Position numbers and translations under genes: made by a program. DNA of 33,188 nt from Pseudomonadales bacterium (lineage in GTDB: Bacteria; Pseudomonadota; Gammaproteobacteria; Pseudomonadales; Azotimanducaceae). The number at the start of each line of letters is the position of its first letter. Positions within the stretch are counted from its first letter, which is position 1. Of this stretch, positions 7,210 through 12,041 are shown in pieces. The stretch lies in NCBI GenBank assembly GCA_017854255.1, contig JAFMIA010000032.1, positions 1 through 33,188 on the forward strand, read 5' to 3'. The notes under the pieces are model-generated. The model saw nothing but the letters and a program-made list of their open reading frames with translations, searched no databases and was not told the DNA's origin.

Positions 7210-7288
7210 CGCTGTAAGCTGCAACTTCGTCAGATAGCCTTATTCTTAGGCGGATCTGAAAACGCACACGGTTATCGGAACATTGCGC

Positions 7289-8503
7289 ATGAAATCGAAT
7301 CTGGTCCTTGTGGCTTTAATGGCCGGCGCGGCTTTTTTTACACTCTCAGGTTACGAGTTAATTCGATCGTCGGCGACGGTTTTATTTAAAGCAGCCTATG
7401 GCGCTGAAAATTTACCGGTGGTGATGGCGTTGATGCCCCTGGTCATGTTTGCAGGTGTTTGGGGTTATGGCGCGCTGTTAACGCGCTTTGGTCCACGCCT
7501 TACATTAAGAATTACAACCATCGCCGCGGCCTGTTTGATGCTGCTGTGTTATGGCGCGCTGCAACTGGAGCTGTTATGGGTGACGGCCGTTCTATTTCTG
7601 CTGAAAGAGTTCTATGTGGTGCTTTTGATCGAACAGTATTGGAGCTATATCAACTCCAGACTCGATCAAGATACGGCAAAGCGTTTTAATGGGCCGATTA
7701 CCGGCCTTGCAGGGCTCGGTAGTGTGGTTGGTGGTGTCATGGTCGCGCAACTCGCAATCCCTTTCGGGACGGAAAATCTCGTTTTGCTTGCTGCTATTGC
7801 GTTGATCCCCGCGGCATTGCTTTCTAATACAGCCTATCGATGGTTTGGTGAGCCAGCAGACCATCAGGACGGGCCGCCCGCTGAAACCTTCAGCGAAGGG
7901 GTTGGTTGGCATTTCGTCAAGCGTAATCCGCGGTTGCTCGCGTTATTGGCGATCGTTTTATCATCTCAGATCATGGCTGCTGTATTGGACTTCAAGTTCC
8001 AAGGGATGTTGTCTGGCGCTTTCAACGGTGATGTCGATGCTGAAACAGCATTTCAAGGCGAGTTCTGGTCTTATCTCAATGCCGTCGCGGTTGCGGCGCA
8101 GTTTATTCTTACGCCGATCTTACTAACCGCTGTCGCGCTTCGGTGGGTGCACCTGTTGATGCCGGTTGTGCATCTCGCTTTGATTTTGTGGGCGATCATT
8201 GAGCCCGGCCTTTGGTCCGTGGGCGCGGCGTTCTTTGCGTTTAAGGTGTTTGATTACTCCGTGTTTCGAGGTGCGAAGGAACTCATTTATTTACCCTTGG
8301 GATTTCAGGAACGATTTAGAGCAAAGGAGTTTATCGATGTGTTTGGCTACCGTACGAGTAAGGGCGGATCATCCATCATTATTGCTACGCTTCAAAAAAG
8401 TGGTGTTGCCATGAGTCAATACTATTTGTGGATCGCCTTGTTGATGGCGAGCTTGTGGTTGGCATTGGTGTTTCCGCTGACGCGTAAGCGCGATGATCCA
8501 TAG
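7289..8503 (+). CDS. NTP/NDP-exchanger-like (Npt/Tlc, MFS-type) membrane transporter
   Basis: A 404-residue integral membrane protein with about 11-12 hydrophobic helices. Several signatures recall the bacterial nucleotide carrier group (COG3202-like relatives of chlamydial and rickettsial Npt/Tlc): FKAAYGAENLP after helix 1, EQYWSYINSRLDQDTAKRFNG in the middle, then GPITGLAGLGSVVGG, and near the C-terminus VFRGAKELIYLPLGFQERFRAKEFID followed by YRTSKGGSS. In parasites these exchange ATP for ADP; in free-living bacteria related proteins exist and their substrate is mostly unknown. ATG 7289 is preferred over TTG 7283; ribosome-binding sequence is weak. It is single and divergent from serC. Substrate assignment is inference. 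Confidence 0.75.
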   Translation: MKSNLVLVALMAGAAFFTLSGYELIRSSATVLFKAAYGAENLPVVMALMPLVMFAGVWGYGALLTRFGPRLTLRITTIAAACLMLLCYGALQLELLWVTAVLFLLKEFYVVLLIEQYWSYINSRLDQDTAKRFNGPITGLAGLGSVVGGVMVAQLAIPFGTENLVLLAAIALIPAALLSNTAYRWFGEPADHQDGPPAETFSEGVGWHFVKRNPRLLALLAIVLSSQIMAAVLDFKFQGMLSGAFNGDVDAETAFQGEFWSYLNAVAVAAQFILTPILLTAVALRWVHLLMPVVHLALILWAIIEPGLWSVGAAFFAFKVFDYSVFRGAKELIYLPLGFQERFRAKEFIDVFGYRTSKGGSSIIIATLQKSGVAMSQYYLWIALLMASLWLALVFPLTRKRDDP

Positions 8504-8542
8504 CGCCTGAATTTGAGTGAAGGGTTTGGGATATTGCTTACT

Positions 8543-10537
8543 TTAAGCCGATTCGGTGTGCTGCTGCCAGCCGAGGGTTGTTTGCCATGTAAGACGTAAA
8601 CCTTCAATGGGCGGGATCATATCGTGTGATCTGACCTCGATAACGAGGCCAGTGCGCACTAAACAGTGCAAGGACGCTTGCATGACCGACGAGGCCACGG
8701 TGACGGCCGATAATTCGCATACGAGACTGCGCGGCTGGGTATAGAGCGCGCGAGTGAGGATTAAGCGCGCGTGCTCGAAGTGATCAAAGCGGTGCTGATC
8801 CGGGGTGATGACGGTATCGAGGCCGAGCGGGTGTCGATGAATTGCCTCGGTTAATGCCATCTGCTGTATTAACCGATCGACCCGTGCCAGATCTGGCGCA
8901 ACGGTCATCATCGTGATGTTGGCCAATATCGTGGTGTTAAAAATAGCGTCGGTGGTCGCAGCCGTTGCGATCGGTGCGGGCAAGTCTGGTTTAACCGCGC
9001 TGTCCGGGCTCCCTGCTTTGGGGTGAGGGTTTAAAATGGATGATCTGACGGCTGAGAAGGATGTTGACGGGCTGAGTTGCAGATACCGCAACGCACCCCT
9101 TTGACTTGTTTGAGCTGAATACCGATTGTGCACCTGCCAATCGGACCGCAATAATTGCGGGCTCGCCGCAATCTGAGTGGGGGGTGTGATCTCGCGGAGA
9201 TCAAGCCGTATTTCCTGAGCTGAACGCGCGCTCGTGAATTGCTGGCACATCGACAAAACATGCTGGGTCAACAGACCGCGATAGGCCAAGATTAGGTAGA
9301 GTCCGCCGAGGCTCATCTGACCGATCATGGCCTCTGATGCGATGCCGTAGAGCAAGAGACTCAAAGCGCTGCCGACTATAAGCTGGTTTATCAAGGTCAT
9401 TTGCGCTTTGCGATTACCCACCAAAAACTGAATAGAATGGGACCCAAGAAGGGTTTGATGGATCCGATGCAGGAAAGACTGCTCGGCGCTGTAGCGGCGA
9501 ATTTCTGTGCGATGATTGAACCACTCCATGAGGTGATCTAACCAAGCGTGTTCTGAATTGGCGCCGTGTTTTTCTGCAGAGATTATGGGTTGTGTGAACC
9601 ATAGGCTGATGCCGACCAGGGCCGCACTGGTCACAGTCATGAGGACTGCAGATGCGGGATGGATTAACCATAAAGTGGTTAAAAGACCGAGTGCCAGTAG
9701 CAGATTGCCTAAAAAGCGAACGGCTTCAGCGCCATAAAATTGCCCGAAGGCGTGAAGGCGTTTAAGACGTTTTAAAGCCCCTTGTGTGTCGATTGCATCG
9801 ATTGTGCCCGATGGCGCGGCAATCTGTTTGCCAAGCAGACTGGACAGAGCATTTCGTTCAACACGCTGACTGCAGCCTAATAAGGCGCGTTCCTGCAAAT
9901 GCGTCATCAATGGCATCGCAAGCAAGGCCAGCAATAATCCGGTCACCGTTGATTGCAATAGGACGAGGTCCTGACTGACGACGACGTCGTCCAAAATGAA
10001 TTTAATCATGAGTGGCACACCGGCCTGAAGGACGCCGGCCATTAGACAGAAAACAAGAGACATGATTTGATTGAGCTGAACCGTTAAGTCATGAGGGTTT
10101 GGGGCGCTGGTTTGCCCTGATATCGCCTTTGACCGGACGTCGATCAACGGCTCGCAGGTCAGAGCCACACCCGTGAAATGGTTCAGAAACGTTTGCTCGT
10201 CGATTGTTAAGCGGCCGATGGCTGGATCATCAACAATATAGCGTCCCCACCGCATCGCTCTGAGGACGACGAAGTGATTGAGTTGCCAGTGTAGAATACA
10301 GGGCAGCGAGACCTCGGGCAGCTCTGCGGGTTCTAGCTCAAGTGCCTGGATGGCAAGGCCGAGCCTTGCCGCGTTCTGGACGAGGTCCGCTGCCGACCAT
10401 TCCTGATTCGCAAGGCCGTGCATGGCTTCGAATTGCACTGCGGTGGTCTGGCCACCAAAGTGATGATCAATCATGATCAGAGTGGCGAGCCCGCAGGCGG
10501 TTCGTCGGTGTTGCAGAATCGGGTGATCAAAGCGCAT
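8543..10537 (-). CDS. C39-peptidase ABC exporter with degenerate ATPase domain
   Basis: A 664-residue protein laid out like peptidase-containing ABC transporters (PCAT), which trim double-glycine leaders and export peptides. Residues 1-125 are a C39 peptidase with the triad intact: Q9, C15 (TACGLATL), H88 (NHFVVL), D104 (VDDPAIG). Residues about 155-435 are the membrane domain. The last part (about 450-664) aligns with an ABC ATPase only loosely: IFNTTILANI (532-541) and ARLILTRALYTQPRSLV (590-606) match the usual post-Q-loop and post-signature segments. There is no Walker A motif anywhere, the signature region reads PDQHRFDHFEH in place of LSGGQ-like residues, and the Walker B aspartate is a cysteine (LVCELSA). 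The ATG at 10537 has GGGGA upstream and overlaps the HlyD gene by 11 bases. The frame has no stops, so it does not look like a simple pseudogene. Confidence 0.85.
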   Translation of the reverse strand: MRFDHPILQHRRTACGLATLIMIDHHFGGQTTAVQFEAMHGLANQEWSAADLVQNAARLGLAIQALELEPAELPEVSLPCILHWQLNHFVVLRAMRWGRYIVDDPAIGRLTIDEQTFLNHFTGVALTCEPLIDVRSKAISGQTSAPNPHDLTVQLNQIMSLVFCLMAGVLQAGVPLMIKFILDDVVVSQDLVLLQSTVTGLLLALLAMPLMTHLQERALLGCSQRVERNALSSLLGKQIAAPSGTIDAIDTQGALKRLKRLHAFGQFYGAEAVRFLGNLLLALGLLTTLWLIHPASAVLMTVTSAALVGISLWFTQPIISAEKHGANSEHAWLDHLMEWFNHRTEIRRYSAEQSFLHRIHQTLLGSHSIQFLVGNRKAQMTLINQLIVGSALSLLLYGIASEAMIGQMSLGGLYLILAYRGLLTQHVLSMCQQFTSARSAQEIRLDLREITPPTQIAASPQLLRSDWQVHNRYSAQTSQRGALRYLQLSPSTSFSAVRSSILNPHPKAGSPDSAVKPDLPAPIATAATTDAIFNTTILANITMMTVAPDLARVDRLIQQMALTEAIHRHPLGLDTVITPDQHRFDHFEHARLILTRALYTQPRSLVCELSAVTVASSVMQASLHCLVRTGLVIEVRSHDMIPPIEGLRLTWQTTLGWQQHTESA

Positions 10538-11756
10538 TGCGCATCCCCAATGCTGGCGAGACCATGGCAGCAAGACGGTCGAATAGCGTTTTTTCGGACA
10601 CAACGAGCCAAGTTTGGGCCTGAGTGCCAGCAATAAAACTTAACGCTTTGCCGGTTGACGTAATGATCGGTTTGGGTAAGCGCACGGTCGCGATTAGGTC
10701 GCGCGGCCTGGATGTGTCATTCGGCGGATCGCTCACGGCGAGGGCTGAGAGGTCTCGAATCGTTCCTGAGATGCTGCCGTCCAGTGGGGTTAAGTGGGTG
10801 AGTAATTTTAAGTCTATGGCATCACCAATATTGAGTGCGGTTTGAAGCCTTTCGGGAACGCGCAGTTTTGCGAGGTAATAAGGCTTTTGGGTTGCCAGTT
10901 CAACAACGGGCATATTGGGGCCGATAAAATCCCCGGGTTCAGCAGCTCTGGCCACGATTCGCCCTGAGCTGTTAGCGGTGATGGTTCGAAGAAGGGCCCT
11001 GTCCCGCTGTTGAGCGTCTTGGTTAATGCCTTGGCGCTGGCGCTGGGCTTGAACTTCAGCCAGTTGAGCCGCGAGTTTCGCTGACTCAAGGTTGGCTCGC
11101 GCGGACGCGAGTTTAAACGACAGGCCGGCTTGCTCGGATTTAAGATTGACAATCCGAGCGGCTGAGACTCTGAGCGGCGCATTCATACGCTGCCATTCGA
11201 CGGCTGAGATGTACCGGTTTAGAAACAGTTCACGAGCCGCTGCGAGGGCGTTTTGTTGTTGTCGTAAGTGGTCTACCTCGAGGTTGATTAAGGTGCCGCG
11301 CCAATGCCGTTGTTGAATCAATAAGTTGACCTCGCCTTGGCGTTTACCGATAAGCAACGCTTGCTGTTGCTGTCTAATTTGATGCTCACGTTGCAGGGAT
11401 TGAGCCTCGAAGGCCGAGATTCGTTTGCGCGCAGCGTGCTCGGGAGTTGTGACTGGTTTGATATAGGCGATGACCTTGCCAGACTCGACAAAATCGCCAA
11501 TTTGGACTGCAAAGGCTTGCAGTTGGCCGCTGGTAGCGGCGGTTTGAATCAAGGTTTTGGGTTCATAAAGATGTCCGCTCAGGAGAACGCGATCGGGTAA
11601 CGGTACGAATCCAACGAGCAACAACAGCACCAAGGCTAATAGGGACCCTACTATTAGGCGCATGGCTGCACTGTCGTGATTCCGTGGCAGGTCGCCAAAG
11701 GTCGCCGCTCGGTGAGAGACTTTTCGAGCCCGGTCGCGAAAAAGTAATCGATTCAT
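10527..11756 (-). CDS. HlyD-family membrane fusion (adaptor) protein
   Basis: A 409-residue periplasmic adaptor typical of type I secretion and bacteriocin export. It opens with MNRLLFRDRARKVSHR, a single membrane helix at about 32-50 (MRLIVGSLLALVLLLLVGF), a lipoyl-like half-motif (QIGDFVESGKVIAYI), a long coiled coil rich in Q, A, R and L (about 95-245), the second lipoyl half (RIVARAAEPGDFIGPNMPVVEL) and a beta-barrel part. A TTG at 11879 would add 41 residues with an extra hydrophobic segment; ATG 11756 is preferred because the N-terminus then matches adaptors of PCAT exporters, but the extension cannot be excluded. It overlaps the exporter gene, so the two proteins are expected to form one complex together with a TolC-like outer membrane channel, which is not in the window. 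Confidence 0.85.
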   Translation of the reverse strand: MNRLLFRDRARKVSHRAATFGDLPRNHDSAAMRLIVGSLLALVLLLLVGFVPLPDRVLLSGHLYEPKTLIQTAATSGQLQAFAVQIGDFVESGKVIAYIKPVTTPEHAARKRISAFEAQSLQREHQIRQQQQALLIGKRQGEVNLLIQQRHWRGTLINLEVDHLRQQQNALAAARELFLNRYISAVEWQRMNAPLRVSAARIVNLKSEQAGLSFKLASARANLESAKLAAQLAEVQAQRQRQGINQDAQQRDRALLRTITANSSGRIVARAAEPGDFIGPNMPVVELATQKPYYLAKLRVPERLQTALNIGDAIDLKLLTHLTPLDGSISGTIRDLSALAVSDPPNDTSRPRDLIATVRLPKPIITSTGKALSFIAGTQAQTWLVVSEKTLFDRLAAMVSPALGMRNAL

Positions 11757-12041
11757 TTTTGACTCGAAGAAAAACCACGGATCATAGGCATAGAACAAAA
11801 TAGTGGCGGCTGCGATTGGTATCCAGTTACGTAGGACATTGATCGCCCTTGATGTTGTTTTCGTCCGCTGCTTGCGCAAGACAAGACCGGTCGTGGTGAC
11901 TGACCGAGTGCTCAGGCAAGGATGTGTTTGAGTCAGGCGCGCGAGGCGTCATATTCGGCGCATTGCAATCAATTTTGACGGGGACTAGGATGATCGAAGG
12001 TGTTGTGTTTGCTCTTGTCAAAAGATCAGGAGGTCACTTTG

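Follow-up and report, generated by a model that had tools for sequence, protein, structure and literature searches.

A gene on the reverse strand of a 33,188-nucleotide stretch of Pseudomonadales DNA (hereafter the window; gene coordinates 8546..10537) encodes a protein of 664 amino acids, in which a C39 peptidase domain and an ABC exporter membrane domain (TMD) are followed by the remnant of an ATPase domain (NBD). Comparison across the genus suggests that it is probably a peptidase-containing ABC transporter (PCAT) stripped of its ATPase and kept as an ATP-free maturation gate for a 54 amino acid peptide, beside an HlyD-like adaptor. The combination of a kept peptidase and a dead ATPase described in the initial annotation is conserved across species, and of the three readings offered with it, a membrane-tethered leader peptidase working with HlyD appears the best supported, and an exporter driven by some other means is conceivable.

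The reading frame (8543-10633) is open throughout, its ATG at 10537 giving the 664 codons previously read, and all domains lie on the reverse strand. The C39 domain (10148..10537; residues 1-130) matches the Peptidase_C39 model over residues 7-130 (PF03412; Bitscore: 90.3, curated cut-off: 22; e-value: 1.2e-25), while the motif columns contain the complete catalytic set of Gln, Cys, His and Asp (Q9, C15, H88 and D104), as had been noted from the sequence. By model score and catalytic residues it is a member of the C39 family. The TMD (9260..10066; residues 158-426) matches the ABC_membrane model (PF00664; Bitscore: 50.5, cut-off: 28; e-value: 3e-13) and is further supported by an own-genome match. 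No Pfam match to ABC_tran was found in the 664 amino acid protein at an e-value ≤ 0.01. The window protein has nothing at the Walker A column, FDHFE at the signature column and SLVCEL at the Walker B region, where Cys takes the place of Asp and the next Glu is retained, and the reported loss of all three motifs is therefore upheld. Furthermore, neither [GA]x4GK[ST] nor LSxGQ is matched in any of the six frames across 8300-10700, which rules out a hidden Walker A or a frameshift as the cause and agrees with the earlier view that one frameshift does not explain the loss.

The expected position of the Walker A lobe is occupied by a fast-evolving linker without Walker A (8978..9259; residues 427-520), and residues 521-664, from the IFNTT region to the C-terminus, constitute the NBD remnant (8546..8977). 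The NCBIfam models for the ABC exporters MsbA, CydD, CydC and PrtD match residues 519-634, approximately, with weak scores, and the C-terminus can therefore be considered a real NBD remnant, in line with the proposal that fragments of the fold persist. The distance from the end of the TMD to IFNTT, which the initial annotation judged shorter than usual, is 105 residues and is indeed short by comparison with the 127 residues in three same-genus orthologs with an intact ATPase, but not with seven intact outgroups (105-142 residues). Because the outgroup locus with 105 residues (L017) retains Walker A, a short region alone does not equate to ATPase loss. The top NCBIfam model is NHLM_micro_ABC1 (residues 7-463; Bitscore: 131.5, cut-off: 853.3), and the score falls below both PCAT cut-offs, those of TIGR03796 (131.5 against 853.3) and TIGR01193 (35.5 against 523.85). 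PCATs require an NBD with Walker A, signature and Walker B, and since this ATP-binding feature was checked and all three motifs are missing, the window protein is classed from its sequence as a variant of the PCAT exporters and is not counted as a member. The tetrapeptide HRFD at the X-loop/signature position (residues 582-585) is common to the window clade and the pair G007/G004, proteins sharing about 30% identity, and is missing in G014 and G006.

A structure model predicted from a 14-sequence alignment reached a mean pLDDT of 71.5, against 34.2 with a five-sequence alignment. Values lie mostly at 80-94 in the TMD, at 43-84 by ten-residue blocks in the C39 domain and at 69-86 over residues 521-610 of the NBD remnant, being lower beyond; the linker is predicted mostly below 50 from residue 449 onward (26-50 over residues 451-520). 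The top PDB matches of the model are PCAT1 chains (e-value: 1.3e-23), with a TM-score of about 0.45 and an rmsd of about 20 Å, on account of which the placement of the domains is unreliable. PCAT1 also ranks first for the sequence profile of the ATPase-dead clade (e-value: 1.9e-37).

The genus was represented by fifteen genomes, with G000 being that of the window, and the locus was read in fourteen of these. A C39 search matched in thirteen of the fifteen genomes, and 10/13 C39-TMD proteins at the locus lack Walker A, the signature and the Walker B Asp-Glu (G000, G002, G003, G004, G005, G006, G007, G009, G012 and G014; hereafter dead copies), although the Walker B Asp is retained in G006, where only the Glu of that pair is missing. 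Recurrence of the same losses in ten of the thirteen proteins places them beyond chance. The peptidase Gln, Cys, His and Asp are retained in all ten dead copies, those of G009 in a separate reading frame. The copies in G001, G011 and G013 are intact, with the motifs GPSGCGKS, LSLGQ and DEST (one residue being unread in G011). The shared neighborhood comprises SDR and MATE genes on one side, the HlyD gene, the C39 gene, a convergent transporter gene, SerC, TctC/B/A and RsgA; only 4 kb of it are available in G006, covering the C39 and convergent genes plus a fragment, and the stretches of G004, G005, G009, G012 and G013 end inside it. The convergent gene (7283-8503, forward strand, in the window) encodes a transporter matching the TLC ATP/ADP-carrier family (PF03219; e-value: 1.5e-08), and this convergent arrangement is seen in every genome whose contig reaches that far.

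Adjacent to the C39 gene, the HlyD-like periplasmic adaptor gene (10527..11879, reverse strand) encodes a HlyD-family adaptor beside an inner-membrane protein, a feature of type I secretion systems (PF13437; Bitscore: 33.8, cut-off: 22.2; e-value: 6.3e-08 for a 430 amino acid part). In the window, its last 11 bases are shared with the start of the C39 gene, ATG included. An 11-base overlap is seen in all four close-clade copies whose start is clear (that of the window in G000, and those of G003, G005 and G002), and overlap or spacing differs in other copies. The adaptor is found at the locus in all twelve genomes with enough contig. Three OEP-type open frames were identified in the window genome by the search for TolC, none of them adjoining the operon.

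Several copies are damaged. The G008 locus contains a HlyD fragment of 153 amino acids and an ORF of 169 amino acids matching the NBD remnant, while C39 and TMD are gone; the deletion (L039, 10084-11051) places the N-terminal HlyD fragment beside the 169 amino acid ORF, an uninterrupted frame that encodes nothing but the NBD remnant. A frameshift immediately behind the peptidase domain divides the G009 copy of the C39 gene into two overlapping frames (L031, about 9919-9946) and may be genuine or an assembly error, and the matches in G007 and G014 read through a stop near the C-terminus. In G010 neither the C39 protein nor the neighboring transporter was found, the transporter search being one without a positive control.

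In a tree of the C39 and TMD regions (443 columns, 20 sequences), the ten dead copies are monophyletic (support: 0.999) and joined at 0.998 by the intact same-genus group (0.999), with weaker support for the deepest nodes inside the dead clade (0.79 and 0.82). A tree of flanking genes (12 protein clusters, 13 genomes, midpoint root), which leaves out G006 and G010, separates the three intact species from the others. From the monophyly of the dead copies and the flanking-gene tree, the ATPase loss therefore looks single and vertically inherited, and it is older than lineages with C39 domains sharing 44-48% identity. Among the best-scoring loci read in order- and family-wide surveys, no other ATPase-dead case was found outside the genus. 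Walker A is present in the main frame of 26 and the second frame of two of the 29 best-scoring loci from 390 genomes of the order, and the remaining locus (L067) is cut short at a contig end by its coordinates. From 150 genomes of the family, 29 loci were read: six are dead and come without exception from this genus, the filter recognized the motif in 21, and in two the motif begins with Ala. These two (L159 and L162, from another genus) were considered as a second dead lineage and rejected, as they are intact (APSGYGKT or APSGFGKT, SGGQ and DEAS) and had been missed by the motif filter. The dead-clade profile matched seven loci on viral contigs, all on contigs also matched by intact-PCAT queries, and no dead copies were seen among the viral loci read (some of the seven), which all have Walker A.

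Selection was estimated by pairwise codon maximum likelihood, using our own script, for five pairs from the close dead clade and the separate dead pair G007/G004. Across the five close pairs, ω is 0.08-0.18 for C39, 0.19-0.38 for the TMD (0.14-0.38 with G007/G004 added), 0.16-0.27 for the NBD remnant (0.15-0.27 with G007/G004 added), 0.26-0.55 for the linker (residues 427-520) and 0.19-0.34 for the whole protein. Neutrality (ω = 1) is rejected for C39, the TMD, the remnant and the whole protein in all five pairs (whole-protein 2ΔlnL: 31.8 to 222.8); the linker differs, with 2ΔlnL at 1.8 (no rejection) in the closest pair and 4.3 (marginal rejection) in another. In G007/G004, ω is 0.12 for C39, 0.14 for the TMD, 0.13 for the linker (dS of 4.5, saturated) and 0.15 for the remnant, with ω = 1 rejected per domain. 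The intact pair G013/G001 gives 0.10, 0.12 and 0.11 for C39, TMD and NBD, respectively, the HlyD gene 0.19-0.30 in dead pairs (intact pair: 0.17), and the flanking control genes 0.03-0.20, most of these below 0.09. On these codon comparisons, constraint in the dead clade is relaxed about twofold relative to G013/G001, yet far from absent. Under neutrality, about 72 stops per substitution per site are expected in the C39-gene frame, and as such about 52 (72 x dS) between G000 and G003 (dS of 0.72), where none is seen.

These estimates bear on the possibility that function has been lost and the system is slowly on its way out, as might be suggested by the relaxed ω relative to the intact pair, the G008 deletion, the G009 frameshift and the read-through stops in G007 and G014. 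We consider such decay improbable, as all five pairs reject ω = 1 over the whole protein and G007/G004 rejects it per domain, the expected stops are absent, and the loss predates deeply diverged lineages. The initial annotation had proposed that a decaying pseudogene would be marked by an excess of neutral substitutions together with close relatives whose Walker A is intact at this locus; such relatives exist in three genomes, but the substitutions point to purifying selection. By its substitution pattern, the window gene is not a simple pseudogene, with C39, TMD and NBD remnant under purifying selection, and the conservation across orthologs that the initial annotation asked about is thus borne out for the losses in the ten dead copies.

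C39 is the most conserved module in the dead copies. Between the deep dead lineages (window/G007, window/G014 and G007/G014), identity is 44-48% in C39, 20-26% in the TMD and 22-38% in the NBD remnant, and between the window protein and that of G006 it is 35%, 18% and 20%, respectively. Among four intact outgroup pairs, NBD identity is above that of C39 in two, the same in a third and 47 against 50 in the fourth. The intact same-genus locus L011 shares 42% (C39), 24% (TMD) and 39% (NBD) identity with outgroup locus L014, and since the TMD of this intact pair reaches only 24%, low TMD identity is not in itself a mark of ATPase loss. In terms of sequence identity, what has changed in the dead clade is the NBD part, which is now much less conserved than C39.

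The prominence of C39 could also be explained if the protein were a peptidase only, with the TMD and NBD stub acting as a membrane anchor, the cut peptide staying cytosolic or inserting into the inner membrane, no export taking place and HlyD having another role. The low TMD identity between dead lineages, the higher ω of the TMD than of C39 and the disappearance of the ATP cycle used by PCAT1 for release are in keeping with this explanation. It is nevertheless rather unlikely, given that the ω of the TMD is well below 1, that the HlyD gene is itself constrained in dead pairs (0.19-0.30) and that HlyD was truncated along with the loss of C39 and TMD in G008. The retention, constraint and co-truncation of HlyD suggest that the envelope side still matters.

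The initial annotation also offered the protein as the heterodimer partner of an active half-transporter. One half with a degenerate site might pair with an intact ABC half-transporter encoded elsewhere, and nine other ABC exporter matches occur in the window genome, namely three adjacent pairs, an MsbA-LpxK frame, LssB proper (L049, a separate gene) and one MsbA-related single frame. As described in excerpts of PMC7756269, a composite ATP site is formed by the Walker A of one NBD and the signature of the other. Because the remnant lacks both of these halves, an intact partner could complete no site with it, making an ordinary heterodimer very improbable. Furthermore, ABC sets similar in size and pairing, the only features compared, are present in G008, where an MsbA-size frame is lacking, and in the intact-clade genome G013, so that this limited comparison reveals no partner peculiar to the dead clade. 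The partner proposal is thus not sustained. The MsbA-LpxK frame (L042, in the region G000:C113:6518-7234) joins MsbA (TIGR02203) and LpxK (TIGR00682) in a single open frame with both matches above cut-off, that of LpxK covering its N-terminal half before the locus end; frames of 962-991 amino acids at ABC exporter matches in nine other genomes of the genus suggest, by size only, that this fusion is shared.

A double-glycine precursor, which the initial annotation recommended searching for, was found in the window genome. The GG-leader model TIGR01847 has no match there at an e-value ≤ 1; it has matches in five of the fifteen genomes, two of them above cut-off, and its sub-cut-off matches in G004 (e-value: 0.9) and G008 (e-value: 0.475) are homologous short peptides. 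A profile built from these two identified a 54 amino acid peptide in 12/15 genomes (e-value: 2.9e-28 or better), the three without it being 80, 72 and 62% complete. In the window genome it is encoded at G000:C68:4314-4478 and comprises a leader of 15 residues and a hydrophobic core of 39 residues. The peptide gene is unlinked to the C39/HlyD operon and is flanked by a beta-lactamase-family gene (PF00144) and pntB in G000, G003, G007 and G008; an extra gene stands between peptide and pntB in G001 (PF01694, rhomboid) and G013, and the G010 contig stops 3′ of the peptide. Between G000 and each of G003, G005 and G009, the core shows 16-19 synonymous codon differences and no amino acid change, and ω for the peptide is 0.008-0.032 in 7/11 pairs (dS below 4), the other four being saturated and unused.

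Met1, L(-12), V(-4) and GG are invariant in all twelve peptides, position -7 is L or I in all twelve and E(-8) occurs in nine, with the remaining leader positions varying; the leader consensus L(-12)xxxE(-8)L(-7)xxxxG(-2)G(-1) is thus matched. Recognition positions of PCAT1, LahT and ComA substrates, as set out in excerpts of PMC6959990, are L(-12), L(-7), the specificity position -4 and GG. The four invariant positions among the fourteen after Met all fall within these five, for which the chance is 5/1001 if positions are taken as independent. On the peptidase side, the position aligned to A55 of PCAT1 holds A in the dead copies (G in G014) and that aligned to I59 holds V, I or L. Position -4 of the leader is faced by V or I, an arrangement shared with LahT147 and its V(-4) substrate. 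Because outgroup PCATs likewise have V or I at the facing position, this residue is consistent with the peptide without being specific to it. A family search gave one C39 match in the window genome at an e-value ≤ 0.001, and the 54 amino acid peptide is the best substrate candidate for this only detected C39 peptidase. The proposal of a tethered leader peptidase acting with HlyD is supported by the conservation of C39, the retention of HlyD and the existence of a GG-leader peptide.

None of the bacteriocin or microcin models matched the peptide above cut-off (e-values: TIGR03949, 0.00044-0.048; PF10439, 0.026; PF17508, 0.17; TIGR01847, 0.065), and no match to it was found in plasmids. Inspection by eye of the gap between HlyD and SDR in nine loci revealed no convincing small ORF for a precursor. 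The peptide is retained in G008 despite the loss of C39 and TMD, and the G010 peptide resembles those of the intact clade. Because the three intact species (G001, G011 and G013) carry it too, the peptide, on its distribution, marks the genus and not the dead clade. A second C39-ABC pair is observed in G001 (frames of 997 and 707 amino acids; L040, at G001:C40:1-20000, L176, L181 and L177), with two Cys-rich GG-leader precursors near it and a similar precursor in G013:C160.

We suggest that the ATPase was lost once, in the stem of one clade within this marine Pseudomonadales genus, and that the protein has been kept since, its NBD remnant possibly packing against the TMD. Excerpts of PMC8794836 describe nucleotide-free PCAT1 as inward-facing with its peptidases docked, and ATP-bound PCAT1 as outward-open with undocked peptidases and reduced cleavage. 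Without nucleotide, the window complex would rest inward-facing, corresponding to the docked, cleaving state of PCAT1, and C39 would bind the peptide and cut after Gly15. Then, with no ATP hydrolyzed by the window protein, the freed core would reach the membrane or envelope, a step proposed because HlyD is retained. The fuller version of this scheme, in which an ABC exporter became an ATP-free gate where C39 cuts at the TMD mouth, after which the core either exits through TMD and HlyD or inserts in the membrane, is put forward tentatively, as it is somewhat less likely than not to be correct in these particulars. Counted against the proposed gate are the roughly twofold relaxed constraint relative to G013/G001, the G009 frameshift, the read-through stops in G007 and G014, the unlinked peptide gene and its persistence in G008, and the sub-cut-off scores of the bacteriocin models. 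If true, the fuller scheme would represent a naturally ATPase-less ABC secretion complex that was stable over the divergence of a clade.

Among known systems, PCAT1 of Clostridium thermocellum (PDB 4ry2, 4s0f, 6v9z and 7t54) is the closest, sharing the C39-TMD-NBD order, the Gln/Cys/His/Asp set and the best profile and fold match; its ATPase is intact, whereas the window protein has no Walker A, signature or Walker B and only an NBD stub. FapD and free C39 peptidases share a C39 domain without an ATPase, and FapD is matched weakly by the window protein (NCBIfam; e-value: 0.0017), but they lack the exporter TMD and NBD remnant. The type I exporters HlyB and LssB share the TMD-NBD exporter with an HlyD adaptor (fold match rank 7). 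They are the mirror image of the window protein, with an active ATPase and a catalytically dead C39-like domain. The heterodimers TmrAB and TM287/288 share degenerate NBD motifs but keep one complete composite site, as described in excerpts of PMC7756269, whereas the window remnant can complete none. No report of a natural ATPase-less PCAT was recognized in searches of an open-access full-text library, subscription papers being outside the scope of the search. PCATs tie peptide cleavage and export to ATP; in the dead clade these functions would have been separated by evolution and not by mutagenesis, in a lineage that keeps peptidase, TMD, NBD stub and HlyD under selection after loss of the ATP site. 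Peptide processing and release by an exporter without nucleotide thereby become testable with a specific candidate substrate, and the G001, G011 and G013 orthologs, which share the locus, the HlyD partner and the GG peptide but have intact ATPase motifs, provide built-in controls.
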